Part shown: positions 38,526 through 53,119 of the stretch, piece by piece
Numbering within the stretch: the first letter of the stretch is position 1
Layout: the number at the start of each line of letters is the position of its first letter
DNA from: Methanosphaera stadtmanae
GTDB taxonomy: Archaea > Methanobacteriota > Methanobacteria > Methanobacteriales > Methanobacteriaceae
Assembly (NCBI GenBank): GCA_015062825.1
Contig: SUTR01000009.1
Span: 1 to 59,899 of the forward strand
Direction: 5' to 3'
Length of the DNA stretch: 59,899 bases
The notes under the pieces: model-generated
What the model was told of the DNA's origin: nothing
The model's input: only the letters and a program-made list of their open reading frames with translations
The model's database searches: none
Translations under genes and position numbers: made by a program

Positions 38526-39227
38526 ATGCTAGAACAATTCTTACAATATGGGATACTTGCTGCTATACTTGTATTTGGTGTGAAAATAGGTTTAGCATTA
38601 GGTTTCTCTGGAATTAAACGTAAAACCGTAGGTTTAATTTTATTAGGATATGCAGTTGGCTTAATACTGCTTTCATATATCTGTCAGCCATACACTCAAC
38701 AAGTATATGACCTTGTATACGGATATAGTGGAGCAATATTTGCAGTAATTGCATTGATAATAGTTATAACAGGTTTTAAAACAATATATGACTGGAAAGT
38801 AACACAAAAAGATGTGGGTTCAGCTACATGTATGGCAGTAGTCGCACCATGTCCATGCTGTTTCGGAGCAATACTTGCATCAGTAATATTGGTCGCACCA
38901 GTTGCAGGAGTCTCTACAGTAACATTAGGTGCATTATCCTCAATATCACTAGTAGTAGTAATGGGACTTACATATTTACTATCATCAACAATAGTAAAAA
39001 GAATAAACAAGCCATACCCATTAGTACTGGGAAACTTCATGATATTCATTGGAATATACTTTGTATTATGCTTAATGATACTACCAAACATTTCATTACT
39101 TGTAGGTTCATCAGCAATGCAAATACAATCCTCAATGAATCTGGTGATAATGATTGGAGTACTACTCATAATGATAATAGCAGGAGCAATAATTGCCAAA
39201 AAAAGAAGTTACTTTTTACAATACTAA
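38526..39227 (+). CDS. DUF2162 family membrane protein (putative transporter) with CPCC motif
   Basis: 233 residues with about seven hydrophobic segments, so an integral membrane protein. The middle carries AVVAPCPCCFGA, an unusual Cys-Pro-Cys-Cys motif at the start of a membrane helix that could bind a metal or disulphide partner. Family and context match the DUF2162 putative transporters that sit next to ExbB-like and DUF2149 genes. In Bacteroidota the comparable set accompanies the CobN-like HmuS in haem loci (family knowledge). AAGGGA precedes the ATG. The ExbB-like gene follows after 24 bases. Substrate unknown. A metal or tetrapyrrole permease is the leading inference. Confidence 0.72.
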   Translation: MLEQFLQYGILAAILVFGVKIGLALGFSGIKRKTVGLILLGYAVGLILLSYICQPYTQQVYDLVYGYSGAIFAVIALIIVITGFKTIYDWKVTQKDVGSATCMAVVAPCPCCFGAILASVILVAPVAGVSTVTLGALSSISLVVVMGLTYLLSSTIVKRINKPYPLVLGNFMIFIGIYFVLCLMILPNISLLVGSSAMQIQSSMNLVIMIGVLLIMIIAGAIIAKKRSYFLQY

Positions 39228-39251
39228 ACAAATATTTAAGGGGGAAATAGG

Positions 39252-39917
39252 ATGGCTACAACAATACCTGGAGGAGATATTCTAACAGGAGTACTGGATG
39301 TTATAGCACAAAGTCTACTACTGCCTGTAATGATCTTGCTGATTATATTCATCATCTTTGCAGTAATAGAAATAGGTTCAATACTGGCAGAATACACAGG
39401 TAGACAGAAAATTAGTGGTGAAGAAAAAGAAGAAATGATTAAGAAAGTCTCACGTTGTAAAACACAAGCAGAAATATGTCAAGTAATAGAAAATACAAAA
39501 CTAAACGTCTATGATAAAGGCTTATTAACTGAAATAGCAAACATAAGTCCAATAGAATACGATAAAACTACACGTGAAATACTTGCAAGAAACCTACTAG
39601 AAACACATGAAGCAAAAATCGTAGGTTCACTATCAAAAGTAGATATAGTAGCAAAAGTAGGATCCGGTTTAGGATTACTTGGTACAATCATACCTATGGG
39701 TCCAGGTCTTGCAGCATTAGGTACTGGTGATATGGTAACATTAACAACCAACCTTACAACAGCATTCAACACAACAACAGCAGGACTTGCAGCAGGTACA
39801 ATCTGTTTTGTAATAGCAAAAATCAGAAGAAACTGGTATAATCAGGACATGGAACTGTTATATGACCTAGCAGAATGTATATTAGGGGTGGATGTAAATG
39901 TCCCTCAGACGCAGTAG
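39252..39917 (+). CDS. MotA/TolQ/ExbB-type proton channel protein
   Basis: 221 residues. One hydrophobic segment near the N-terminus (VMILLIIFIIFAVIEIGSIL), a cytoplasmic helical region, then two segments around GSGLGLLGTIIPMGPGLAALG and TTAFNTTTAGLAAGTICFVIA, the diagnostic ExbB/TolQ pair with its Gly-Leu-Leu-Gly-Thr and Thr-Thr-x-Ala-Gly-Leu patterns. With an ExbD-like partner it would use the ion gradient to energise a process outside the membrane. GGGGGAAATAGG precedes the ATG. The 3' end overlaps the DUF2149 gene by 20 bases, so the two are co-translated. Confidence 0.88.
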   Translation: MATTIPGGDILTGVLDVIAQSLLLPVMILLIIFIIFAVIEIGSILAEYTGRQKISGEEKEEMIKKVSRCKTQAEICQVIENTKLNVYDKGLLTEIANISPIEYDKTTREILARNLLETHEAKIVGSLSKVDIVAKVGSGLGLLGTIIPMGPGLAALGTGDMVTLTTNLTTAFNTTTAGLAAGTICFVIAKIRRNWYNQDMELLYDLAECILGVDVNVPQTQ

Positions 39918-40200
39918 AATGAGAAAAAATGAGGAAGACCTCGATCCAATGTCATCAGTTACAAACATGACAGATATAATGCTTGTACTTGCAGTAGGAT
40001 TTTTGATATTTGCAATGATGTCAACAGGAATGCAGCAAATGCAACAACAACAGCAACAACAGCAAACTGTTGAAGTAGAAGAAGGTCAGGAAGTATCTGA
40101 TGTTATGGAAAGCATCGATTCATCAAGTTCAGGATATACACAGACAGGTATAGTATATACTGATCCTAAGACAAACAAGCAATATATGGTTGCAACTTAA
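39898..40200 (+). CDS. DUF2149 protein, ExbD-like partner of the ExbB-type channel
   Basis: 100 residues. After a basic N-terminus comes NMTDIMLVLAVGFLIFAMM, a single membrane helix with an early Asp, the position of the proton-binding Asp in ExbD/TolR. A short Gln-rich stretch (QQMQQQQQQQQ) and an acidic, presumably external domain end in GIVYTDPKTNKQYMVAT. It is shorter than ExbD but matches DUF2149 proteins that accompany ExbB-like and CobN-like proteins. GGGGTGGA precedes the ATG, which lies inside the upstream gene. A T-rich tract about 20 bases after the stop probably ends the operon. Confidence 0.78.
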   Translation: MSLRRSRMRKNEEDLDPMSSVTNMTDIMLVLAVGFLIFAMMSTGMQQMQQQQQQQQTVEVEEGQEVSDVMESIDSSSSGYTQTGIVYTDPKTNKQYMVAT

Positions 40201-40513
40201 AAAACCATTATTGACTTTCTATTTTTTTTATTTTTATTTACATAATCCAATAATTTAAATCATCAGTCTATTTTTCAATAAAAGTTATTTTTTGATAATT
40301 TTAAAATTTCAACATATTATCATTTTTTTTATTAAACTTTATTTTTACATAAAGCATTTTGAATTAGTATATTGATTAAATGAACTTTATTTGAATTAAA
40401 TAAAATATAATACTTTGTATAATCATAATATAATATAGCATTAAATTCTAAAAATTTTTTTTTCTTATGAATATTAATTGTTTTGAATTAATGTAAGACA
40501 GGTGAAATATAAT
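40201..40513. other. Intergenic region, 313 bases: terminator tract and adhesin promoter
   Basis: The left side has T-rich runs (about 40220-40240) suited to archaeal termination. The right side holds the leader of the next adhesin-like gene, with a 7-base inverted repeat (ATTAATT/AATTAAT, 40473-40492) just before the GGTGA site. No gene is supported. Confidence 0.5.
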
Positions 40514-43500
40514 ATGAAGACCATAAGTAAATTCTTGTTGTTAACATTAGTTTTACTATTTGTTGGTCTTGCAACAGTATCAGCAGCAGATACAAATGAT
40601 ACAACTGCAGCTGTTATGTCTGATCATACAACAAGCAATCAAATCACAGATAAGATTGCAGAAACTAATGCACAAACAAGTAATATGGAAGAAAATACAC
40701 AAACAGATAAGATTATAAAAACAAATAACAAATCAATAAAGAATGCAAGAACTATCACAGTAAGAAGCACAACATACAATCAATTCTTTACAAATAGTTC
40801 TGGAACAATAGCAAGTACTGAATTAATACAATCAGGAGATACAGTAAACTTGCAGGGAATCTTTAACAATGTAAACTTTGCAGTGGACAAGAATATCACA
40901 TTAACAAGTACAAACAGCAATGCAACACTAAACAACTGTACAGTATATGTAACAGGAAAAAATGCATCAGGCTCCACAGTATCAAATCTTAAAATATTAA
41001 ACAGCAAAGAACAAACCACTGGTATACATATAAAGAACACTACAAAAATCACAATCCTAAACAACTATGTAAAGGTAAACGGTAAAAACTCCTTTGCATT
41101 TGCAGCAGACAAAACCAACTACAGTACAATAAGAAACAATTACTTCCAGGCAGCACTGCCAACCGGACAAAGCTATGCACATACAACACTAGTGTTAGGA
41201 TCAAGCCACTATAATAATATAATAAACAACACCATAAACTGTACAGCAAATGGAATCTATCTAAGTAGCTATGGAAACACATATGCAAACTTTGAAGGAG
41301 GAGCATCAAACTATAACAACATCACACAAAACAGAGTCACAGGAGATGACAGTGGATGGTGTTATACAATACAGGTTATGGGAGAGTCAAACAGGATAAC
41401 ATACAACAATGTATCCGGAGGATACCGTGGAATATCAACACAGGACTATAAAAACAATGTTATCTCAAACAATGACGTCCAGGCAACAAGCCTTGGAATA
41501 TATGCATGTGAATATGCAAATGTAACAAACAACTATGTACATGTAACCCAATCAGCTACCGGCATAACCATTGGTGGAGAAGGAGTAAAAATAGCAAACA
41601 ACAATATAACAACCGTTGACGGTGTTGCAATTGAGATAAGTGGAAGTAAGACAAACATAACAAACAACACAATCACATCCACAAATGGATATGGAATACA
41701 TTCAAAAGGTCAATACAATAATATCCTCATTGCAGAAAACAGGATAACAACAGGAAATGAGGGAATACTCTTTAAGAAACAATCATCCACAAAGAAAATT
41801 AACCATGTAAAAGTAGATAAAAACACAATAAAGACAACCGCTGACTATGCAATAAACTTTGAAGAAGCAGGAGCATCAACCGCATCTGCAATAAACATAA
41901 CAGTCACATCATCAAACGTACTAACATCAGCCCGTGGAACAGGAATAAACAACTGTTATCTAAAACCATCAAATGCAAATGACCAGTCAATAACAGAAGA
42001 TACAAATCAGACAATAACAATAACACAAAGTACATATGATGAATGGTTTGAAGATGGAATAGCAAGCATAAAGATAAAACAAAATGCAACAGTATACCTT
42101 AAAGGAACATTCAACAACCTAAACTTCACATTCCCTAAGAAAGTACATATAATAGGATCAAACTGTGTATTAAACAATGCAACAATAACATTAACAACAG
42201 ATGCACATTCATCAACAATAACAAATCTAAAAATAAAAAACAACGACAAGCTAGTAACAAGACATGGAATTGAAATACTTGATGTAAACAACTGTAAAAT
42301 AACCAATGTCGCAATAGAAAACCAGGCAGAATATGAAAGTCTGGGAATATTCCTTGACGGAGCAAGCGGAAATGAAATATCAAACTGTAACATAACAACA
42401 ACTGGCGACTACATAAACAATGGAATACTAGCATATTCATCAGACTCAAACGTATTTAAAAACAACAACATAAACATACAACAGTCAAGCAAAGCACAGC
42501 CTTATGATGAATCAATAATGTTCAATGAAAGATTAGGAACAATCAGAGAAGTACTCCACACCCATGGAATAATACTCCTCTATTCATCAGACAACACAAT
42601 AAATGCCAACAACATCAAAGGAACATCATCATTCAATAATTATACATTCCCAACAAATGACTGTAAAAACAGTATGGTTGGAATAGACATATACTTTGAC
42701 AGCCACAACAACAAGGTAACAAACAATAAGATTAACCTAACCAGCCTTGGTCCATTCGTATATGGAATGGGAGTGCTTGGTGGATACTGGGGCTCATCAA
42801 TAACAAGTCTCAACGCAACAACAAACCAGTTCAAGAACAATAATGTAAATGTTACCGGAGGATACTTTGCAACAGGATTTATTGCAGGAAGAAACAGTAT
42901 TTCAACAATACTGGATTCAAACAATATAACAGTAAACACAATACGTAACCAGACAACAAAAGGTGACTATGCACATGGAGTAACACTTGAAAACAGTACA
43001 AAATCAAACATCACAAACAATAAAATAAACACACAATCAACAAGTGCATATCCAATCGAGTTATTTGACTCTACATACAACAATATAAAAAACAATGTAA
43101 TAAATGCCAATGCAACACAGCCATATGGAATTGCAGGATACAGAACATCCTACAACAACATGACAGGAAACAATATAACAACCAGAAAAGGAAACTATGG
43201 AAAGACCAGTACTGCAGTACATAGTGATGTAATACCATCAGGTGATGATGGAATACTACTCATGTCTGAAAGCCGCTACAACAACATATCCTATAACAAT
43301 ATTGATACAAACTCAACAAACACTGTAAGACTAACCAACCAGACATCATACAACAATGTAACACAAAATGCATTAAAATCAAAAAGCCTAATCGGTGACA
43401 AATCAGTACTAAACCAGCAGTCAACTAACAAGGTATCAAACAACTTCCTATACTTTGTAAATGTAACAGTGCCAAATGTCACAGCAGAACTAGGAACAAC

Positions 43501-45538
43501 AGTAAACATAACTGCAAACATACAAAGCCAGGCAACAGACCTGTCAAACTTAACCGCTACATTCTATCTTGGAACAAACAATATAGGAACAGCCAAAGTA
43601 GTAAACAAGAAGGCAACACTATCATATCTGGTATCAACATTATGGAATCCAACAACATATACCATAACAACAAATGTAAACGGTACAAACTTCCAGAATG
43701 TATCAGCAAAATCACAGGCAACATTCACCAAGCCACCAGAAGAAACAGTAGTTACAGTAGCTAAAGTACTGCAGACAGTTGGAAAAACAGCAGCACTAAA
43801 GGCTAACATCACAACAAAAGACGGTGGAAAAATAGGATCAGGACAGGCAGAATTCTACATAGACAACACCAAAGTTGCAACAGTAAATGTAAACCTGGGA
43901 ACAGCTAGCTACAACTATCAGATAGCCTCAAATGCCGCAAATACTGTACATACAATAAAAGTCACATATCTGGGAACAGCAGACTATAAGAAATCAACAG
44001 GAACAAACAAACTGGGAGTACAAACACTTACCTCAATCACATCACAGAATCAAACATCAACAATTGCAAAACAGGTAACATTAAATGCTAAGATAACATC
44101 TGCATCAAAAGCCCTAACTACAGGCAAAGTCAAAATATACATAGCAAACAAACAGGTGGCAACTGCAACCATAACAAATGGAAACATAAACTACAACTAC
44201 ACCATACCAACATCAATGGACAAGGGAACATATGACCTTAAATTCGTATATGATGGAAACGACACAGTATCATCTGCAACAAAAACAGTAAAACTAACAG
44301 TAAATGCAATGACACCTGTATTCAGCTACAACAAGACAACAGTAGCAGTGGGAAAAACAGCAAACCTACTATTGAAAATAGACAATGGCCTTACCGGAAC
44401 AAACTACATGACTGCAAACAATGGAAATGTAACAGTAAAACTAAACGGTAAAGTATTGAAGGACTCCAAAGGAAATGAAATAGTTGGAACAATGAAAAAT
44501 GGTTCACTTACAATAACATTCAATGCAACAAAAGACATACTTGGAACACATAACATATCATTTGTATATGCAGGAAATTCCAAATTCAATGCAGCAACAA
44601 AAACATATACAAATTCATTATCAATAGTTGAAAAAGACAATGTAATAATAAAGATTACAACACCAACAAGTGCAGTAACAGCTAGTGACGTTCCAATAGC
44701 CCTACAAGTAACAGATAGAAGCGGCAGCCTAGTAAATTCAAAACTAATCCTAAAGGTAAATGGATTAACACAGAAGGATGCTAAAGGAAACACCCTTATC
44801 ATAAATGTAACAAATGGTAAAACAACATATTACCTTAACCTTGGAGGATACTCAGCAAGAAATCATACACTCACATTTAAATCAGTAGACAATGACCATA
44901 TACCAACAGAAAACTCAACCACACTAGTTGTAACCAAAGGTACATATGCAATGGATAAGATTACATTCAACGCTTCAAGTGAACAGACAATAACACTAAA
45001 CAGAACACTTAAAGATGTAAATGGTAAAGTAATACGTGGAGTGACAAAAGTAGCAATAAAAGTAGGAGACCGTACAGTACTAACAACAAGCGTAACTGAT
45101 GGAAAACTAAACGTGAAATTCAAAATACCATACCTGCCGCCAGGAAGCAACAAATTCCAGATAACACTTGGTGAAAACTACAGGTATAACATGCTAAGAG
45201 TAAAATCCACAATCAACATCTACAAACAGAACATGACTGCAACAATAACACCAGTTACAGCAAAACGTGGACAGCAAATAACCATCAAGGCAACAGTCAA
45301 AAACTCAGGTACCAAGACAAATGTAATAAGTGGTAAATTCTCATTCAAGATAGATGGAGCAACCATTAAAGCTGAATCCGGTTCAGCAACTGCAGTCTCA
45401 AATGGAATTGCACAGATAAAATATACAATACCATCATCCATGAAGACAGGACTGCACAACATTACATTTGTATACGGATCAAACACTCAGACAAACAGTG
45501 GAAGAATAACCCAACAAGTACTAACCGTCAAAGCATAA
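40514..45538 (+). CDS. Giant adhesin-like surface protein, two beta-helix regions and about seven Ig-like domains
   Basis: 1674 residues. Signal peptide MKTISKFLLLTLVLLFVGLA then TVSAADTND. Two beta-helix regions follow (about 90-470 and 490-980), each introduced by a similar sentence (TITVRSTTYNQFF and TITITQSTYDEWF), so the region is internally duplicated. Seven Ig-like repeats run from about 983 to the end (for example VPNVTAELGTTVNITA, ITPVTAKRGQQITIKA). Asn and Thr are very frequent, so many N-glycosylation sequons are available. No C-terminal membrane helix or sorting motif is evident. I prefer the ATG at 40514 with GGTGA upstream over the GTG at 40502. It lies between the ExbB operon and an ATPase gene. 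Confidence 0.87.
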   Translation: MKTISKFLLLTLVLLFVGLATVSAADTNDTTAAVMSDHTTSNQITDKIAETNAQTSNMEENTQTDKIIKTNNKSIKNARTITVRSTTYNQFFTNSSGTIASTELIQSGDTVNLQGIFNNVNFAVDKNITLTSTNSNATLNNCTVYVTGKNASGSTVSNLKILNSKEQTTGIHIKNTTKITILNNYVKVNGKNSFAFAADKTNYSTIRNNYFQAALPTGQSYAHTTLVLGSSHYNNIINNTINCTANGIYLSSYGNTYANFEGGASNYNNITQNRVTGDDSGWCYTIQVMGESNRITYNNVSGGYRGISTQDYKNNVISNNDVQATSLGIYACEYANVTNNYVHVTQSATGITIGGEGVKIANNNITTVDGVAIEISGSKTNITNNTITSTNGYGIHSKGQYNNILIAENRITTGNEGILFKKQSSTKKINHVKVDKNTIKTTADYAINFEEAGASTASAINITVTSSNVLTSARGTGINNCYLKPSNANDQSITEDTNQTITITQSTYDEWFEDGIASIKIKQNATVYLKGTFNNLNFTFPKKVHIIGSNCVLNNATITLTTDAHSSTITNLKIKNNDKLVTRHGIEILDVNNCKITNVAIENQAEYESLGIFLDGASGNEISNCNITTTGDYINNGILAYSSDSNVFKNNNINIQQSSKAQPYDESIMFNERLGTIREVLHTHGIILLYSSDNTINANNIKGTSSFNNYTFPTNDCKNSMVGIDIYFDSHNNKVTNNKINLTSLGPFVYGMGVLGGYWGSSITSLNATTNQFKNNNVNVTGGYFATGFIAGRNSISTILDSNNITVNTIRNQTTKGDYAHGVTLENSTKSNITNNKINTQSTSAYPIELFDSTYNNIKNNVINANATQPYGIAGYRTSYNNMTGNNITTRKGNYGKTSTAVHSDVIPSGDDGILLMSESRYNNISYNNIDTNSTNTVRLTNQTSYNNVTQNALKSKSLIGDKSVLNQQSTNKVSNNFLYFVNVTVPNVTAELGTTVNITANIQSQATDLSNLTATFYLGTNNIGTAKVVNKKATLSYLVSTLWNPTTYTITTNVNGTNFQNVSAKSQATFTKPPEETVVTVAKVLQTVGKTAALKANITTKDGGKIGSGQAEFYIDNTKVATVNVNLGTASYNYQIASNAANTVHTIKVTYLGTADYKKSTGTNKLGVQTLTSITSQNQTSTIAKQVTLNAKITSASKALTTGKVKIYIANKQVATATITNGNINYNYTIPTSMDKGTYDLKFVYDGNDTVSSATKTVKLTVNAMTPVFSYNKTTVAVGKTANLLLKIDNGLTGTNYMTANNGNVTVKLNGKVLKDSKGNEIVGTMKNGSLTITFNATKDILGTHNISFVYAGNSKFNAATKTYTNSLSIVEKDNVIIKITTPTSAVTASDVPIALQVTDRSGSLVNSKLILKVNGLTQKDAKGNTLIINVTNGKTTYYLNLGGYSARNHTLTFKSVDNDHIPTENSTTLVVTKGTYAMDKITFNASSEQTITLNRTLKDVNGKVIRGVTKVAIKVGDRTVLTTSVTDGKLNVKFKIPYLPPGSNKFQITLGENYRYNMLRVKSTINIYKQNMTATITPVTAKRGQQITIKATVKNSGTKTNVISGKFSFKIDGATIKAESGSATAVSNGIAQIKYTIPSSMKTGLHNITFVYGSNTQTNSGRITQQVLTVKA

Positions 45539-45554
45539 GAGATTAATTCTCTTA
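45536..45554 (+). terminator. Hairpin starting at the adhesin stop codon
   Basis: TAAGAGA (45536-45542) and TCTCTTA (45548-45554) form a perfect 7-base stem with a 5-base loop. The first three bases are the TAA stop. A T-rich tract follows (about 45560-45570). It resembles the stop-overlapping hairpin at 34685-34713. Confidence 0.5.
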
Positions 45555-45593
45555 TCACTATTATTTTTTTCTTAAAAATTTTCTATTATTAAA

Positions 45594-45763
45594 AACTAAT
45601 TTTATTAGTTAAATTTAATTTTATCAGTTAAATAATATATAACATTTTTATTGTTAAAAATAAATTTTAGTAGTTAAATTATATTTAACTTGTATATTTT
45701 TATTAATAAAAATTTCTTATTAAATAATTATTAACTAGTTAAATAATTCTTTAGTAGTTAATT
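45594..45763 (+). promoter_or_regulatory. Array of AGTTAAAT motifs before the ATPase gene
   Basis: Four exact AGTTAAAT copies (45607-45614, 45626-45633, 45672-45679, 45737-45744), one near-copy AGTTAAT (45756-45762) and one inverted copy ATTTAACT (45683-45690). The third and the inverted copy form the palindrome AGTTAAAT-TAT-ATTTAACT (45672-45690). Another palindrome, TTAACTAGTTAA, lies at 45731-45742. The array ends about 55 bases before the start at 45817. It looks like a multi-site operator. The bound protein is unknown. Confidence 0.55.
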
Positions 45764-45816
45764 ATATATATATTCTTCTATTAATATATTATATATAAAT
45801 CAGAGGAATAAATAAT

Positions 45817-47001
45817 ATGAATTATATGCCGATTGTCATACCTGAAGATATTGATAAATATTTTTATAATAGAAATAAAGAGTTTAAAATACTTAACACT
45901 AATTTAGAAATGTTAGAAGAGGGAATTCCTAATCAATTTTTAATTACCGGATATAGGGGTATAGGGAAAACCTCTTTATTAAAGAAATTACTGAAAAATT
46001 TACCGGACAAATTTTTAACAACATATATTGATTTATCGGACGTTTATGGTAGACAAAAAGGTAAATTATCTGAAGAAGAAGTAATAAAAGAATTTCTATG
46101 TTTGATAGAAGAAAGCATAGAATCTAATGAAAAAATAGTTAGAACTGCTAAAGAAAGATTATATGATACTTTAAATCAGTTAAAATTAAAGAGTTATAAT
46201 TTTAATAATTCTAATTTACGTGACTTACCCCTTCCAATTATAAAAGATAATTATAATAAATTAAGTAAGTATGTGATGGAATTACCACAAAAGGTTGTTG
46301 ATTCATTTGATGAAATTAAAGGTTTTATAATAGTCATTGATGAATTTCAATTATTAAAAAATCTTGAAAATCCAGAGGCATTCTTTTGGTTAATACGCAG
46401 TTACACACAAAAACAGTATAATGTAAGTTATATATTCACAGGCAGTGTTTCAAATACTGCTGAGATAAATAATATGATCAACGGTCAAACAGGTGCTTTT
46501 GGTGGGCGAATGTTCCAGTTAAACATTGATGAATTCAGTAAACAACAGACAAAAGAATATATTGATAAATACTCAAACAATATCAAATTTGATGATGAAG
46601 GTTTTGAAAGATTTTATAAATGTACTCGGGGAATTCCTGCATATATTAACAGTTTTTGTAATATTTTACCAAATAATATGATTTGTACAAGTGAAATTAT
46701 AAAAGAAGCTTTTATTATGAATATTGATAATATAGCATTATTATGGCTTAGAGTATGGGGTACGTTGACTGATAAAGAAAAAGAATTAATTATAATGTTT
46801 GTAGAAAATGGTTCATTAGACTGGACTTCACTAGTTAATAATGTTTCTTATACTCCAGTGACATTATCACATTATCTTGATTTACTTAGTAACAAGGGAA
46901 TCATTGAATATTCCTCTGATGGTAAGTATTACCTATCTGATATTATGCTAAAAAGATGGTTAAATCTAAAAAAACAAACACGGGGCAGATATCCGGAATA
47001 A
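45817..47001 (+). CDS. Archaeal ATPase (AAA/STAND type, Pfam ATPase_2-like)
   Basis: 394 residues. Walker A is TGYRGIGKTSLLKKL (about 42-56). Walker B is IIVIDEFQLLKNL, then YIFTGSVSN as sensor and RGIPAYINSF, a pattern of the archaeal ATPase family. A C-terminal winged-helix part (LTDKEKELIIMF...TPVTLSHYLDLLSNKGIIE) is expected to bind DNA or a partner, as in other STAND-type archaeal ATPases. Role unknown. It differs from the DUF4143-type ATPase at 33128 but has the same setting, a single gene between surface-protein genes behind an operator-like array. GAGGAAT precedes the ATG. Confidence 0.78.
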   Translation: MNYMPIVIPEDIDKYFYNRNKEFKILNTNLEMLEEGIPNQFLITGYRGIGKTSLLKKLLKNLPDKFLTTYIDLSDVYGRQKGKLSEEEVIKEFLCLIEESIESNEKIVRTAKERLYDTLNQLKLKSYNFNNSNLRDLPLPIIKDNYNKLSKYVMELPQKVVDSFDEIKGFIIVIDEFQLLKNLENPEAFFWLIRSYTQKQYNVSYIFTGSVSNTAEINNMINGQTGAFGGRMFQLNIDEFSKQQTKEYIDKYSNNIKFDDEGFERFYKCTRGIPAYINSFCNILPNNMICTSEIIKEAFIMNIDNIALLWLRVWGTLTDKEKELIIMFVENGSLDWTSLVNNVSYTPVTLSHYLDLLSNKGIIEYSSDGKYYLSDIMLKRWLNLKKQTRGRYPE

Positions 47002-47206
47002 GTTATTAAGTGGGTTTATAGATTATAATTCAATCTAAATCTTCATATCTTCCTATTTTTTATATTTATTTTGTCTATTTTTTAAAAAATTTGATTAACA
47101 TCAATACTAATTTTTTAAATTATATTTTATTAAACTATCAAATCAATTTTACATATATTAAAAATATACATAACTATATAATTTATAAAAAACTATATAT
47201 AATTCA

Positions 47207-47242
47207 GTGTATCTTTTTTAAAATTGAAAAATAATGATACAC
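47207..47242 (+). promoter_or_regulatory. Inverted repeat at the CobN-like gene promoter or leader
   Basis: GTGTATC (47207-47213) and GATACAC (47236-47242) are exact 7-base arms 22 bases apart. TATA-like sequences lie just upstream (47181-47202), so the repeat spans the expected transcription start or 5' leader before the GGAG at 47264. It may be an operator for metal or tetrapyrrole control (inference). Confidence 0.35.
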
Positions 47243-47275
47243 ATTTAAAAAAATTTCAAACAAGGAGCATATGTA

Positions 47276-50200
47276 ATGAATAAGAAAATTATTTCATTAT
47301 GTATGATACTCTTTATAATGATAATATGTACTACTGTAAGTGCACAGCAAAACGATACAAATACAACAATAGACAATCAAACAGATACGACAACAATCAC
47401 TACAACAGAACACATAGCACAACAGACAATTGCAAAAACAGCATCAAAGTCAAATGATGCTTCAACAAGTGCAAGCACTGCAACAAAGATTAAACAAAGT
47501 GAAAGCAATGATAACTTGCAGGATGTACAGGTAATAGATGAAGATAACAAGTTAATAATTAAGAAGAATAATTCTTCAATCAATGTTAAAACAGATACAA
47601 TCCAAACTTCAACAGTTTTGAATATTACAGGTATAGTCACATCAGCATATGATAAGACAAATGATATATATGCCGGTGGGGAAGAAGATGGATTTACAGT
47701 AAACGGAGCAACAATAAAATTATATAATGAAAGCACAGGAAAAATTATTGCAAATACTACATCAGGTACTGATGGAACATACCAATTTACAAACCTTACA
47801 GTTGGTAACTATACAATAGAATTCAATTATGGTACCTATGCTACAGGTGAAGATACAATAAGCTTAACAAATCAGTCCATAGCATATGATTACATCTTTG
47901 TGCCGGATATAACATTCATCACATTCTCTGGAGACAATAGTGGTGGAGGACAATCCGATAAGATAGCACAATTAAAGAAGATTAGTGACAGGTTCTTATT
48001 CCTGGAAAGCTATGAACTAAACAGTTCCTATGACAATTCAGGTCAATGGATGTTGGACTATTCCAACTTCATAGTAGTTGACATGTATTCAATAGGTAAC
48101 GGTTTTGGAATCGACACGGATTTAATAGCATACTCACCAGCATCAAAGAATGACATGATAGCATATGTCTTTGGAGTGTATGATCTTTCAACAATTCAAG
48201 GAACACTATCAAACTGGGGATTTTTAGGTGGAAACCCACATTCAGTTGAAAACACATACATTGGATCATATTGGCAGACATCATCAGAATCAAATTCAAC
48301 GGTATTACAAAGCAATATGCAACACTTGTATGATTATATAACCTACTTGCTTGACGAAACAGATGTAGACCCAACAAAAAATGGTAATGGTCCATTACTT
48401 GTAACAAGTTCATGGGGAGTATACTATCCAGGATTTACTGGTAATGTAAAAACACCAAGTGAAAAATTGATTAATCAATGGATTAGTCAAGACCCTGGAT
48501 ATGACTATGATGGAGCAGGAAGTTTAAACTGGATGACAGTTGAATATGCAAACTGGAACCTGGAAAACAACGATCCAAAAGTAATCCTCAGAAACTTCGA
48601 ACAATGGTATACAAAAAACAATCCAAAATACAATGGATCATTTATTGTAATATCAACATACTATGAAGGTGGAAAAGTAGTTGATGCATTAATAAAAGAA
48701 TATGAAAAACTAGGCAGAGCAGTTTTCAGTATCTATAAAACCACATCAGAAGATCCTGATATGACGGCACTTCTTGAAATTGCAGGAAACAAGACTGTAC
48801 TTACAAGAGGAGTATCAGCAGTAAGCTATATGTACTGGTGGACAACAGGATATTCACAAAGAGGTACGGATTATACCATAAATGCATATAAGAATCTGAA
48901 CGTATCCCTAATCAATGCATTGAAGGATATAAGTAAATTCAGTTATGAAAGTGAATATGGTCCGCAGAATGAATGGACAGCAGCTGTTACAATGCCTGAA
49001 TTTGAAGGAGTATTTGGTTCAATACCCGTATCCTACCTTGATGACAGTAAACAAACAGTCATCATCGAGGATGGTATAAGAAAACATGCTCAACTAACAA
49101 ATAATTGGGCAAAACTTCGAGAACTAAACAATTCTGAGAAGAAAATATCACTATTGGTATATGGTTATCCACCTGGAAAGGCAAACATTGGAGCATCATA
49201 CCTTGACGTGTTCAAAAGCATTCATGACTTACTTGAACAACTCTATGATCAAGGATATAATATAGGAATGAACAAAACAGAAATTCCAACAGTAGAAGAA
49301 ATAAACAACATAGTAACCGACTTTGGTAACAAAGGATTATGGGCTGAAGGATTAATAGATTCCTATGTTATAACACATTATGAACAATTGACCGAAAATG
49401 GACAACTGGTAAATCAGGACATATATGGCAAATGGTATGACGCACTTCCAAAACAACTTCAACAGGATTTGGATGACTATTGGGGTGAAGGATTAGGTAA
49501 TGGATCAATGATCTACCGTGAAAAAAGCCAAATAGACATTCAGGAATTTGAAGACTGGCTAAGCAGATTCTCAGAAGACTACAGAGTATTATTCAGCCAT
49601 TACTGGAATCTATCCAAGGATGATATAATCATCACACAGGATGATTCAGTCATGGTGGTAAATAAGACCAACTTCTACAAATGGGTATATGATTTACCGG
49701 TTGACATCCAAAAGATATTCAATCAATCCATAGGATTTGCATTGCTGGATGATTCAAACTATAAGAATGAAGGATACTTCCTCATACCTGGTGTTTTCTT
49801 TGGAAACGTATTCTTAAGTGTACAGCCACTAAGAGGATGGGAATCACAGATTGACTTCCACAACTCATACCTGCCACCTCCACAACAGTATATAGCATAT
49901 TACAGATACCTAAGCCGAATATTCCAAACTAATGCAATTATACACTTGGGAACCCACGGAACCCTGGAATGGTTGCCAGGACGTAACTTAGGATTACAAT
50001 CATCAGATTGGCCGTTCCAATTAATTGAAACACCAATCATATATCCTTATATCGTATCAAACCCTGGGGAAGGTATGGTTGCAAAAGAAAGAAGTTTTGC
50101 ACAAGTTATTACACACTTGACACCAGTAACTGCAACTACATCATTATATGGTGACTATGTAGAGTTAAGTGATGCTATATCAAGATATGATACAAGTAAA

Positions 50201-53119
50201 ACATCAGGTGTTCTGGATAACATAGCATACTATAAGGAATATATTCTAAACTTAACAGAAAACTTAGGTTATGATCAACCGGACTATGTAACGGTAAACA
50301 ATACATTAAGCAATTACTATATTGCAGTGGCAAATGAAGATGAAAAAGCTATTAATGATTCAAAGGAAAAACTAATTCAGAAAGCAGAAATCATAGGATA
50401 TGATGCACCGGAAGAAGGTGAATTTGACTCATGGCTTGAAGAAGTAGTAAAATACATTAATAGTGATGATGCATTTGACAAATGGCTTTCAGTAATACAT
50501 GCAAACTTAGAAGCAATGTCTGCAGATAAGATAAATACTGGAATGCATACACTCGGAGAAATATGGAATGGTACAGACTTAATAACAGGAGTCACATCAA
50601 TTGTATCCTCAAGGACAAGCGTACTTGATGATATAATGCACCTATACTATCCGGATATAACAGAAAGTTACTTTGATAAAATCAAGGACAGAGACTTTGA
50701 TGATAAAAGAAATATGATAACAAACATATTAACATCAATAGTAACAAGCCTTGCAGAAGGAAGTACAGTTGAAGATGTAGCAAACAGTTATGGTATATTT
50801 AACAATACAACAGACCTATATCAGGATCTTGTAGAAATAAACACTACCATAAATGACATTCTAAACAATCTGGAATGGTATAGTATAATCACTGCATTAA
50901 ATGGTGGATATGTGGAACCTGGACTTGCAGCAGATCCATTATACTCTGATGTACTGCCAACAGGTAGAGCAATGTATGTTGGAGATACAACCAAGATTCC
51001 AAGTAAAAGTGCATGGCAATCAGCAGTAAATTCCATTGACGACGTACTGGTCAAATACATGGTTAATTTAGGTGAAGAATCATTCCCTGAATTAATTGGT
51101 GAAGTCATATGGGGTACAGAAGCTCTTCGTACTGAAGGTATAAGTCTTGCACAGTTCATGTACCTATTGGGTGTAAAACCTGTATGGGATAAAACCGGAA
51201 CAGTTACTGGAGTAGAAGTAATACCACTTGAAAACCTTACAGTTACAATAGATTCAACAGTTTATCAAAGACCAAGAATAGATGTATTCTCAACACTTGT
51301 ATGTAACAATCCATACTGGCTAGGATTATTAACTCAATCAGTAGAACTGGTAAATTCATTAAATGAATCTACAACTGATAACTATGTTAAAAAACACTAT
51401 GCAGAAACAGGTTCACTTGAAAGACTATTCGGACTTCCAGGAGCTGTACTTGAAGGAACAGGGGTATCTGACCTTTTAAACAGTAAAGGAACTACTCTTG
51501 ATCAGGCTTCAGGTATTGCAGATGAACTGGCAAGTGTATATGAATCAAGGATAGGACATTCATGGAACGTTGACAGTGAAGGAAACATTGTAGTTAAGGA
51601 TGATGGAGAATCATTTGCATATCTCCTAGAACATGTAAACCTGGTCATACAAGACCTGGACAGTACATGGAGATATCTTGACTCAGACGATTATCTTGAC
51701 TGGTTTGGTGGTCTGGTAAATGCAGCAACAGTACATGGAACTATTGTAAACACGGTACTTCTGGATATACGTGACAAAAACACAGTAGTTACCAGTACAT
51801 TAGGTGAAGAGGTTAAAAAAGAGACAAGAACAACAATATTAAATCCACAATGGCTTGCAGATATGACTGATGAAGTCGGTGGATGGAACCAAATGTCTAC
51901 AAACTTCGAAAACCTAATGAAAACAATGCTTACAACACAAAACTACAAAGAAAACCAGGAAGGAAAAGCAATCCTTGACACAAGTGAAGGAAACAATGCA
52001 GGAATCGTAGGAGACGGACTTCTAAGAGAAACTGCAAAAACCGTAACATACAGTGAATACTTCAACATCAATGCACAGTATAAATCCTATGCATTCCAAT
52101 CCATGGCAGGATGGTTATTAACAGCAGATATGGCAGGATACTGGAAAACAAATGACAATACACTTAGAAAAGACCTGTTACAAAAATATGTAGACAATGC
52201 TAACCGTTATGGAGTGGCATGTTGTCACCACACCTGTGGAAACATAAACTTCCACGAATGGGTTATGAAAGTTGGAACAGCTCTTGGTGTAAAAGGATTA
52301 TCCGAGTATTCCGTTCAATATGCATCAGCAACCAAAAATCCAAATGCAGCATCTACTGAATATACCAGTGGAACACCAACTCCAAGTACTGATGGTACTG
52401 GAAATGTAGATATCAGTGAAGGTATTGGTGAATATGCAAATAATGGTGCAACTGGTGAAGCAAATGCAATGGCTATGGCAGCTCAAGGTGCACAGGGACT
52501 AGCTGATTCAGCAAGTAGTTCCGGTAGTTCTACTGTCATGGCAGCAGGTAGCAACTTTGGTACTGGTACAAGTGATTCAGGTTCATCTGGTGGAAATGGT
52601 GGAGGAGTAGGTACAGGTAACGGTACTGGTAACGGTGAAGGATCCGGAGATGGTAATGATACTGCAAACTCTGGAAACTCAACCGGAAACGGTAACGGTA
52701 CTTCCGATGGCCAAACCAACCAAACTGCTGAAGATGGACAAAATACTACTGAAGATGCAAATGGAAGCTCAACAAATCAACAGAATTCAACAAGTGACCA
52801 GAATTCAACAAACAGCCTAGTAAATCAGAATACTACACAATCTGATGGTAGTGATTCTATTGCTGGTGAAGAACCTGAAACTGATCCATCAAGTGTGGAT
52901 ACATCAAGTTCTGAAGTAGCAGTAGCAGGAAGTTCATCTGCCGGAGGTTCATCTGGTGAATCAGCTGGTTCTCCATCAGTATATGAACTTGTCAAGAAAA
53001 ATATTGGTACACCACCATCATCACAATCAGAAATAGCTTTCGGATATCTGTTATTTATTGTAGTGATACTTGTCATATTCTTCGTTGGATTTACAAGGCC
53101 TAATTCAAGGTATAAATAA
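47276..53119 (+). CDS. cobN: Secreted, membrane-anchored CobN-like chelatase (HmuS-like)
   Basis: 1947 residues of the CobN/BchH chelatase family. The symbol denotes family, not proven cobalt insertion. Signal peptide: MNKKIISLCMILFIMIICTT then VSAQQ. About 110-205: a Cna_B-like beta domain (VNGATIKLYNESTG...TYQFTNLTVGNYTIEF). About 220-1660: the chelatase core with the family hallmark HLGTHGTLEWLPGRNLGL near 889 and YPYIVSNPGEGMVAKERS. Near 1648: ACCHHTCGN, a likely metal-binding motif. About 1690-1910: a low-complexity Gly/Ser/Asn/Thr linker. It ends with a membrane helix (FGYLLFIVVILVIFFVGFT) and a basic tail. So it acts outside the membrane, unlike cytoplasmic CobN. With the ExbB/DUF2149/DUF2162 operon it suggests tetrapyrrole metal removal or uptake. 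AAGGAG precedes the ATG. Confidence 0.85.
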   Translation: MNKKIISLCMILFIMIICTTVSAQQNDTNTTIDNQTDTTTITTTEHIAQQTIAKTASKSNDASTSASTATKIKQSESNDNLQDVQVIDEDNKLIIKKNNSSINVKTDTIQTSTVLNITGIVTSAYDKTNDIYAGGEEDGFTVNGATIKLYNESTGKIIANTTSGTDGTYQFTNLTVGNYTIEFNYGTYATGEDTISLTNQSIAYDYIFVPDITFITFSGDNSGGGQSDKIAQLKKISDRFLFLESYELNSSYDNSGQWMLDYSNFIVVDMYSIGNGFGIDTDLIAYSPASKNDMIAYVFGVYDLSTIQGTLSNWGFLGGNPHSVENTYIGSYWQTSSESNSTVLQSNMQHLYDYITYLLDETDVDPTKNGNGPLLVTSSWGVYYPGFTGNVKTPSEKLINQWISQDPGYDYDGAGSLNWMTVEYANWNLENNDPKVILRNFEQWYTKNNPKYNGSFIVISTYYEGGKVVDALIKEYEKLGRAVFSIYKTTSEDPDMTALLEIAGNKTVLTRGVSAVSYMYWWTTGYSQRGTDYTINAYKNLNVSLINALKDISKFSYESEYGPQNEWTAAVTMPEFEGVFGSIPVSYLDDSKQTVIIEDGIRKHAQLTNNWAKLRELNNSEKKISLLVYGYPPGKANIGASYLDVFKSIHDLLEQLYDQGYNIGMNKTEIPTVEEINNIVTDFGNKGLWAEGLIDSYVITHYEQLTENGQLVNQDIYGKWYDALPKQLQQDLDDYWGEGLGNGSMIYREKSQIDIQEFEDWLSRFSEDYRVLFSHYWNLSKDDIIITQDDSVMVVNKTNFYKWVYDLPVDIQKIFNQSIGFALLDDSNYKNEGYFLIPGVFFGNVFLSVQPLRGWESQIDFHNSYLPPPQQYIAYYRYLSRIFQTNAIIHLGTHGTLEWLPGRNLGLQSSDWPFQLIETPIIYPYIVSNPGEGMVAKERSFAQVITHLTPVTATTSLYGDYVELSDAISRYDTSKTSGVLDNIAYYKEYILNLTENLGYDQPDYVTVNNTLSNYYIAVANEDEKAINDSKEKLIQKAEIIGYDAPEEGEFDSWLEEVVKYINSDDAFDKWLSVIHANLEAMSADKINTGMHTLGEIWNGTDLITGVTSIVSSRTSVLDDIMHLYYPDITESYFDKIKDRDFDDKRNMITNILTSIVTSLAEGSTVEDVANSYGIFNNTTDLYQDLVEINTTINDILNNLEWYSIITALNGGYVEPGLAADPLYSDVLPTGRAMYVGDTTKIPSKSAWQSAVNSIDDVLVKYMVNLGEESFPELIGEVIWGTEALRTEGISLAQFMYLLGVKPVWDKTGTVTGVEVIPLENLTVTIDSTVYQRPRIDVFSTLVCNNPYWLGLLTQSVELVNSLNESTTDNYVKKHYAETGSLERLFGLPGAVLEGTGVSDLLNSKGTTLDQASGIADELASVYESRIGHSWNVDSEGNIVVKDDGESFAYLLEHVNLVIQDLDSTWRYLDSDDYLDWFGGLVNAATVHGTIVNTVLLDIRDKNTVVTSTLGEEVKKETRTTILNPQWLADMTDEVGGWNQMSTNFENLMKTMLTTQNYKENQEGKAILDTSEGNNAGIVGDGLLRETAKTVTYSEYFNINAQYKSYAFQSMAGWLLTADMAGYWKTNDNTLRKDLLQKYVDNANRYGVACCHHTCGNINFHEWVMKVGTALGVKGLSEYSVQYASATKNPNAASTEYTSGTPTPSTDGTGNVDISEGIGEYANNGATGEANAMAMAAQGAQGLADSASSSGSSTVMAAGSNFGTGTSDSGSSGGNGGGVGTGNGTGNGEGSGDGNDTANSGNSTGNGNGTSDGQTNQTAEDGQNTTEDANGSSTNQQNSTSDQNSTNSLVNQNTTQSDGSDSIAGEEPETDPSSVDTSSSEVAVAGSSSAGGSSGESAGSPSVYELVKKNIGTPPSSQSEIAFGYLLFIVVILVIFFVGFTRPNSRYK

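Follow-up and report, generated by a model that had tools for sequence, protein, structure and literature searches.

A DUF2162–ExbB–DUF2149 trio and an exported CobN-like protein in Methanosphaera stadtmanae: a candidate ion-driven metal-acquisition system

In the genome of the methanogen Methanosphaera stadtmanae, three consecutive genes for membrane proteins (DUF2162, an ExbB/TolQ-type channel subunit, and DUF2149; hereafter the trio) are followed on the same strand by a gene for an exported protein of the CobN superfamily. We lean, with somewhat more confidence than doubt, towards reading the trio and the exported CobN as a metal-acquisition device that is driven by ion motive force and works on the outer face of this single-membrane archaeon. 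The set probably serves nickel capture, not haem use. The metal would be nickel for a sister clade of CobN that occurs in the same genome, and by paralogy it is probably nickel or cobalt for the clade described here. The window is the whole stretch of 59,899 nucleotides that was analyzed (contig SUTR01000009.1 of assembly GCA_015062825.1, i.e., contig C92 of the 2.61 Mb genome), and its gene calls were backed by Pfam. The four genes at issue are as follows.

38526..39227, + strand: DUF2162 membrane protein (PF09930, E 4.3e-61), with an APCPCCFG motif and seven helices in the AlphaFold2 (AF2) model
39252..39917, + strand: ExbB/TolQ-type channel subunit (PF01618, E 8.6e-8, above the cut-off)
39898..40200, + strand: DUF2149, an ExbD/TolR-like subunit of 100 aa (PF09919, E 1.4e-12), with a single transmembrane (TM) segment by hydropathy
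47276..53119, + strand: exported CobN-superfamily protein of 1947 aa (PF02514, E 8.7e-176)

The trio and the exported CobN as a conserved unit

An earlier, sequence-only reading of the window had described the trio as a seven-helix DUF2162 protein with a CPCC motif, an ExbB and a DUF2149 of 100 residues, and Pfam and AF2 agree with it. The AF2 model of DUF2162 had a predicted local distance difference test (pLDDT) value of 79, and no significant fold match to it was found in the PDB. An alignment (A1) indicated that the CPCC motif is kept in the CobN-associated copies and lost in the copy of the same genome that is associated with CbiM and FmdE; DUF2162 may be a partner of the motor, acting as a transporter or as a metal or thiol membrane partner. 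The ExbB profile reached MotA and TolQ chains with E values near 1e-3. The TM segment of DUF2149 aligned with those of TolR/ExbD (motif DVMLVL) at weak E values of 0.7–7 but in the right family, and the Asp at its start (D26) is invariant in the archaeal sequences and in HmuV, a protein of the Bacteroidota hmu loci. The channel-family match and the invariant TM Asp are thus shared with ExbB–ExbD and TolQ–TolR, whereas the DUF2149 tail is short and unrelated, and there is neither TonB nor an outer membrane.

The signal peptide and C-terminal anchor that had been proposed for the CobN-like protein were also upheld: it matches PF02514, and its only hydrophobic stretches by hydropathy are residues 1–26 and 1915–1944. 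The protein consists of the signal peptide, a carboxypeptidase-regulatory-like domain, the chelatase core (about residues 560–1640), a low-complexity linker and the C-terminal TM anchor. The AF2 model of the core (predicted template modelling score, pTM, 0.76) gave its best PDB matches in Foldseek to CobN (7c6o, 1.7e-42), ChlH (4zhj, 1.2e-37) and HmuS (9d26, 3.7e-37); the modelled fold appears to resemble all three alike, CobN slightly best. The protein scored far under the NCBIfam equivalog cut-offs (368 vs 1619 and 340 vs 822).

The four genes of the window are not one tight operon, as an adhesin-like gene and an archaeal ATPase gene intervene. In eight Methanosphaera genomes (the present one, G020, G016, G021, G029, G030, G094 and G011), a single strand carries the trio, then surface proteins, then CobN, with 7–25 kb between the trio and CobN; in G051, CobN precedes the trio, 3.1 kb away. 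The genome holds three DUF2162–ExbB–DUF2149 trios, and the second, on contig C58, is contiguous with its CobN (DUF2162–ExbB–DUF2149–CobN), the gap between DUF2149 and CobN being 15 bp and the exported CobN 2477 aa long. In 31 further genomes of the order, among the matches listed, CobN and DUF2149 shared a strand, with CobN 2.0–3.5 kb upstream, and the Methanobacteriales loci that we fetched show the order CobN–DUF2162–ExbB–DUF2149. Across 150 Methanobacteriales genomes, CobN was detected in 117 and DUF2149 in 134: 113 had both, 4 CobN only, 21 DUF2149 only and 12 neither (Fisher p 2e-6 without a correction for kinship). A phylum-wide search added two genomes beyond the order. The trio and the exported CobN form a conserved unit, and their association is more than chance; the conservation of the four genes across Methanobacteriales, which the earlier reading had named as a check, was confirmed by the recurrent gene order and by the 113 of 150 genomes with both CobN and DUF2149.

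A tree of the superfamily contained four well-supported clades: the window-type exported CobN (separate, with support 100), the nickel-operon-type exported CobN, HmuS, and cytoplasmic archaeal CobN. In two Methanothermobacter-like genomes (L117 and L034), DUF2162, ExbB and DUF2149 are intact although several open reading frames (ORFs) stand in place of a whole operon CobN, and an adjoining gene for an FmdE-type exported protein may be a replacement partner. At L042:5106-9522, ExbB–DUF2149 pairs are tandemly duplicated beside a very large surface protein.

Operator, transporter operons and nickel limitation

An operator of the form AGTATTAC-N24-26-GTAATACT (≤ 2 mismatches) was found upstream of 25 of 32 CobN operons, namely those of other genera, Methanothermobacter included, and the C58 operon of the window's genome; dinucleotide shuffles gave an expected count of 0.05. 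In this genome, the perfect form AGTATTAC-N25-GTAATACT precedes the C58 DUF2162–ExbB–DUF2149–CobN and the NikM/CbiM–PDGLE–CbiQ operons (0.005 expected), and copies with one mismatch lie upstream of two NikA-type ATP-binding cassette (ABC) operons (C19 and C56). Otherwise, sites with ≤ 1 mismatch, of which base composition predicts 0.22 in the genome, occurred at a single position; in a genus mate, an ExbB–DUF2149 pair is found there. The operator was absent before the cobalt-equivalog CbiMNQO operon (C118). The operator of the sister clade is therefore shared with transporters of the Ni/Co family. The lone copy (L090:3226-3266), where the genus mate (L171) has an ExbB–DUF2149–surface protein set, is probably what is left of a locus that was lost. 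Downstream of NikM/PDGLE/CbiQ, a pseudomurein-binding-repeat protein (L077:6147-6890) is also under the operator.

The half-site GTATTAC and the half-site published for NikR, GTGTTAC (PMC545781), differ at one base, and the genome has a single NikR. Since the half-site is similar but the spacing is approximately doubled, NikR is a likely, putative regulator. The operon of the genome's third trio also encodes two exported proteins, one FmdE-type and one His-rich, together with CbiM (the Ni/Co energy-coupling factor [ECF] S-component; PF01891, 3e-37) and another small exported protein; this operon recurs in other Methanosphaera. At L013:4736-11225, L049:4399-10888, L173 and L179, the order is FmdE-type, His-rich, CbiM, a 160-aa exported protein (mature start HGVDVT), DUF2162, ExbB and DUF2149, so that an ECF S-component without its ATPase stands beside an ExbB motor.

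In genome G019, the CobN of the operon is split into three ORFs, which are followed by DUF2162, ExbB and DUF2149. MTBMA c10550-10570 of M. marburgensis is a CobN-like chelatase (PMC3087415) and would be split in the same way, and synteny sets the direction of the MTBMA numbering. In nickel-limited M. marburgensis, CobN1 and NikR1 were high in nickel limitation only, and “Transporter MTBMA_c10530” was up (PMC12350162). The three-ORF CobN and the synteny suggest that this “transporter” would be the ExbB of the operon, an identification by gene order and not by read annotation. The sequence-only reading had named haem, cobamide or F430 debris as substrates; given the operator shared with Ni-type transporters, the CbiM in the sister operon and the nickel-limitation proteomics, nickel displaces haem and cobamide, and F430 debris may still be a substrate. 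Compared with the archaeal NikMNQO/CbiMNQO systems and the NikR regulon, the likenesses are the CbiM in a sister trio operon, an operator in common with NikM/CbiM- and NikA-type operons, and the NikR-like half-site; the differences are the spacing and the membership of CobN, DUF2162, ExbB and DUF2149, which was not found in the literature searched.

Several points weigh against the nickel reading. The operator (≤ 2 mismatches) was absent from the window, i.e., from the genome's own trio and own CobN there, and from the regions upstream of the trio orthologues, and the FmdE/CbiM operons of Methanosphaera also lack it. Because the window has no operator and its CobN belongs to a separate clade, nickel is transferred to it by paralogy. 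The NikA-type matches were below the curated cut-offs, NCBIfam labels the operator-bearing CbiM “cobalt”, and the proteomic argument depends on G019, which we take to be M. marburgensis. Furthermore, known NikR sites have a spacing of 13/14 (PMC545781), about half the 25 of this operator, and CobN-like proteins of Methanosarcina changed with the iron/sulfur source (PMC10846266).

Relation to chelatases and HmuSTUV, and alternative readings

Class I chelatases need an AAA+ motor. Cytoplasmic archaeal CobN adjoins an AAA+/VWA ChlID gene (TIGR02442, 6e-210) and genes for an ECF S-like protein, CbiQ and an ECF ATPase. In the loci read, no AAA+ CobST/ChlID partner adjoins the exported CobN, which is paired with ExbB–DUF2149 instead; a search for ChlI (PF01078) in Methanosphaera was noisy, with matches that resemble Lon, MCM and RFC by length only. 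The exported archaeal protein shares with cobaltochelatase CobN and Mg-chelatase ChlH the fold, the superfamily His and a CobN-like DDYxxxxGG motif, but differs in being exported and anchored and in having no adjoining CobST/ChlID. At L189:4438-12458 (also L190 and L192), the ChlID-like AAA+/VWA, ECF S-like, CbiQ, ECF ATPase and cytoplasmic CobN genes form one operon, perhaps one in which a chelatase in the cytoplasm is coupled to the import of a tetrapyrrole or metal; its CobN carries an HmuS-like LDHYYEF motif. In the tree, cytoplasmic archaeal CobN groups with ChlH at a support of 96; its grouping with bacterial CobN is less firm (86). In the best tree, all exported CobN lie on one side, apart from the cytoplasmic chelatases (support 86, not decisive); the alternative was not rejected by the approximately unbiased test (p-AU 0.24). 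Placing the window clade next to HmuS (p-AU 0.21) or next to bacterial (Brucella) CobN (p-AU 0.48) was not rejected either.

In the Bacteroidota hmu loci that we fetched, the gene order is HmuS, HmuT, HmuU, HmuV. HmuU matched the archaeal ExbB (phmmer E 1e-30), with GLLGTIIPMGPGLA and TT-type motifs common to HmuU and the window ExbB, and HmuV is a clear DUF2149 (PF09919, E 8e-35; phmmer against archaeal DUF2149, 1e-8). DUF2162 was considered as the counterpart of HmuT and rejected: the profile-profile hhalign probability was 0.5%, and HmuT has no DUF2162 match. We aligned 33 sequences to check the HmuS residues described in PMC12583661. The superfamily His538 (HxG(T)HG) is an invariant column, with IHLGTHGTLEW at residue 889 of the window protein. 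The HmuS motif LSLDHxxEFMGG (His1209 and Glu1212) was not found; the window has LDSDDYLDWFGG, with Asp and Asp. An Asp at position 1209 is common to all exported archaeal proteins and Brucella CobN, whereas cytoplasmic archaeal CobN has the HmuS-like His (TDLDHYYEFLGG). The haem ligands Met79 and His254 are other residues in the aligned columns, in an N-terminal alignment that is weak. The ORFs that we read in the surroundings of the archaeal loci included neither HmuY nor the TonB receptor HmuR. The set is thus like HmuSTUV (PMC12583661, PMC10434189) in its exported, anchored CobN-fold protein, its homologous ExbB (HmuU) and DUF2149 (HmuV), and its gene order, but it has DUF2162 for HmuT, lacks the HmuS-specific haem residues, has neither an outer membrane nor a TonB receptor to energise, and bears a nickel-linked operator in the sister operons. 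The label “HmuSTUV-like” given to the window earlier accordingly fits HmuU and HmuV but not HmuT or the HmuS-specific residues tested.

Between the trio and CobN, the window contains three further features.

40502..45538, + strand: adhesin-like surface protein (beta-helix and Big_3_5)
45817..47001, + strand: archaeal ATPase_2-family gene (PF01637, E 7e-16)
47206..47243, + strand: inverted repeat AGTGTATC-N22-GATACACA, upstream of the window CobN

In five Methanosphaera genomes (L180–L184), the inverted repeat has a long-armed form, AGTGTATTC-N40-47-GAATACACT, present as one copy per genome and always upstream of the orthologous window-type CobN only; a control pattern gave 0 matches. A homologue of the adhesin occupies the same place in most Methanosphaera loci examined, and the adhesin-like protein is a possible alternative client of the motor. 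In none of the other Methanosphaera loci examined did the ATPase_2 gene lie between the trio and CobN; it was considered as a member of the system and dropped, and is probably not part of it.

The alternatives are all unlikely. The least improbable of them is a division of labor in which the C58 clade serves nickel, whereas the window clade handles cobalt, either supplying or removing it, in corrinoid salvage. The active-site DSDDYxDWFGG is nearest to that of cobaltochelatase CobN, with Asp replacing His1209, CobN 7c6o is the top fold match, the grouping with Brucella CobN was not rejected, and the window CobN has its separate private repeat upstream; however, this Asp is also present in the nickel-clade proteins, the window has no cob or cbi gene near the trio, and the signal peptide and TM anchor do not fit the cytoplasmic placement of CobNST. 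It is improbable that the trio is a general energiser of surface proteins (TonB-like without TonB), with the adhesin-like neighbor as its main client in the window and CobN as one of many clients or a bystander. The recurrent adhesin and the ExbB–DUF2149 pairs that adjoin unrelated large surface proteins elsewhere (L042, L044, L171 and L177) agree with such a role, but the CobN–DUF2162–ExbB–DUF2149 order fixed in 31 other genomes, among the matches listed, and the CobN–DUF2149 co-occurrence (113/4/21/12, uncorrected for kinship) do not. A haem (or cobamide) de-chelatase as in Bacteroidota, in which CobN powered by ExbB–DUF2149 removes Fe or Co from an external tetrapyrrole, seems the least probable: the HmuU/ExbB and HmuV/DUF2149 homology, the common order CobN-X-ExbB-DUF2149, the conserved His538 equivalent and the response of Methanosarcina BtuS proteins to the iron/sulfur source (PMC10846266) speak for it, but Met79, His254, His1209 and Glu1212 are replaced, HmuT is not homologous to DUF2162, and the operator of the sister operons is shared with Ni/Co transporters.

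Proposed mechanism and significance

For the ion-driven metal-acquisition device that we favor, we propose the following scheme. The exported CobN would bind a metal tetrapyrrole or some other organic complex of the metal and free the ion; in methanogens, F430 or its debris would be the most plausible substrate. Proton or sodium flow through ExbB–DUF2149 would pull on the C-terminal anchor of CobN and so open or reset it, and the pair would thus do outside the cell what the AAA+ proteins ChlID/CobST do with ATP inside it. The freed ion would enter through the NikM/CbiM- or NikA-type transporters. To our knowledge, archaea have no outer membrane or TonB receptor for ExbB–DUF2149 to energise, so the simplest reading is that the pair acts on CobN (or FmdE) through the membrane anchor. 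More tentatively, exported archaeal CobN and Bacteroidota HmuS may both be chelatases that are run in reverse by an ion gradient, with ExbB–DUF2149 in place of the AAA+ motor, and methanogens may strip nickel from extracellular F430-type compounds.

Many archaeal “CobN” proteins have had no role assigned (PMC12583661). The present analysis places the exported archaeal CobN in an operon together with an ion-driven motor, and links it to an operator and a likely metal. If the scheme is true, methanogens, in which both growth and the hydrogenase chosen hinge on nickel, would have a route for nickel salvage, and HmuU and HmuV in gut Bacteroidota would be read differently. If the reversed-chelatase reading is also true, the archaea would show that it is the chelatase, and not a TonB receptor, that the ExbB pair serves.

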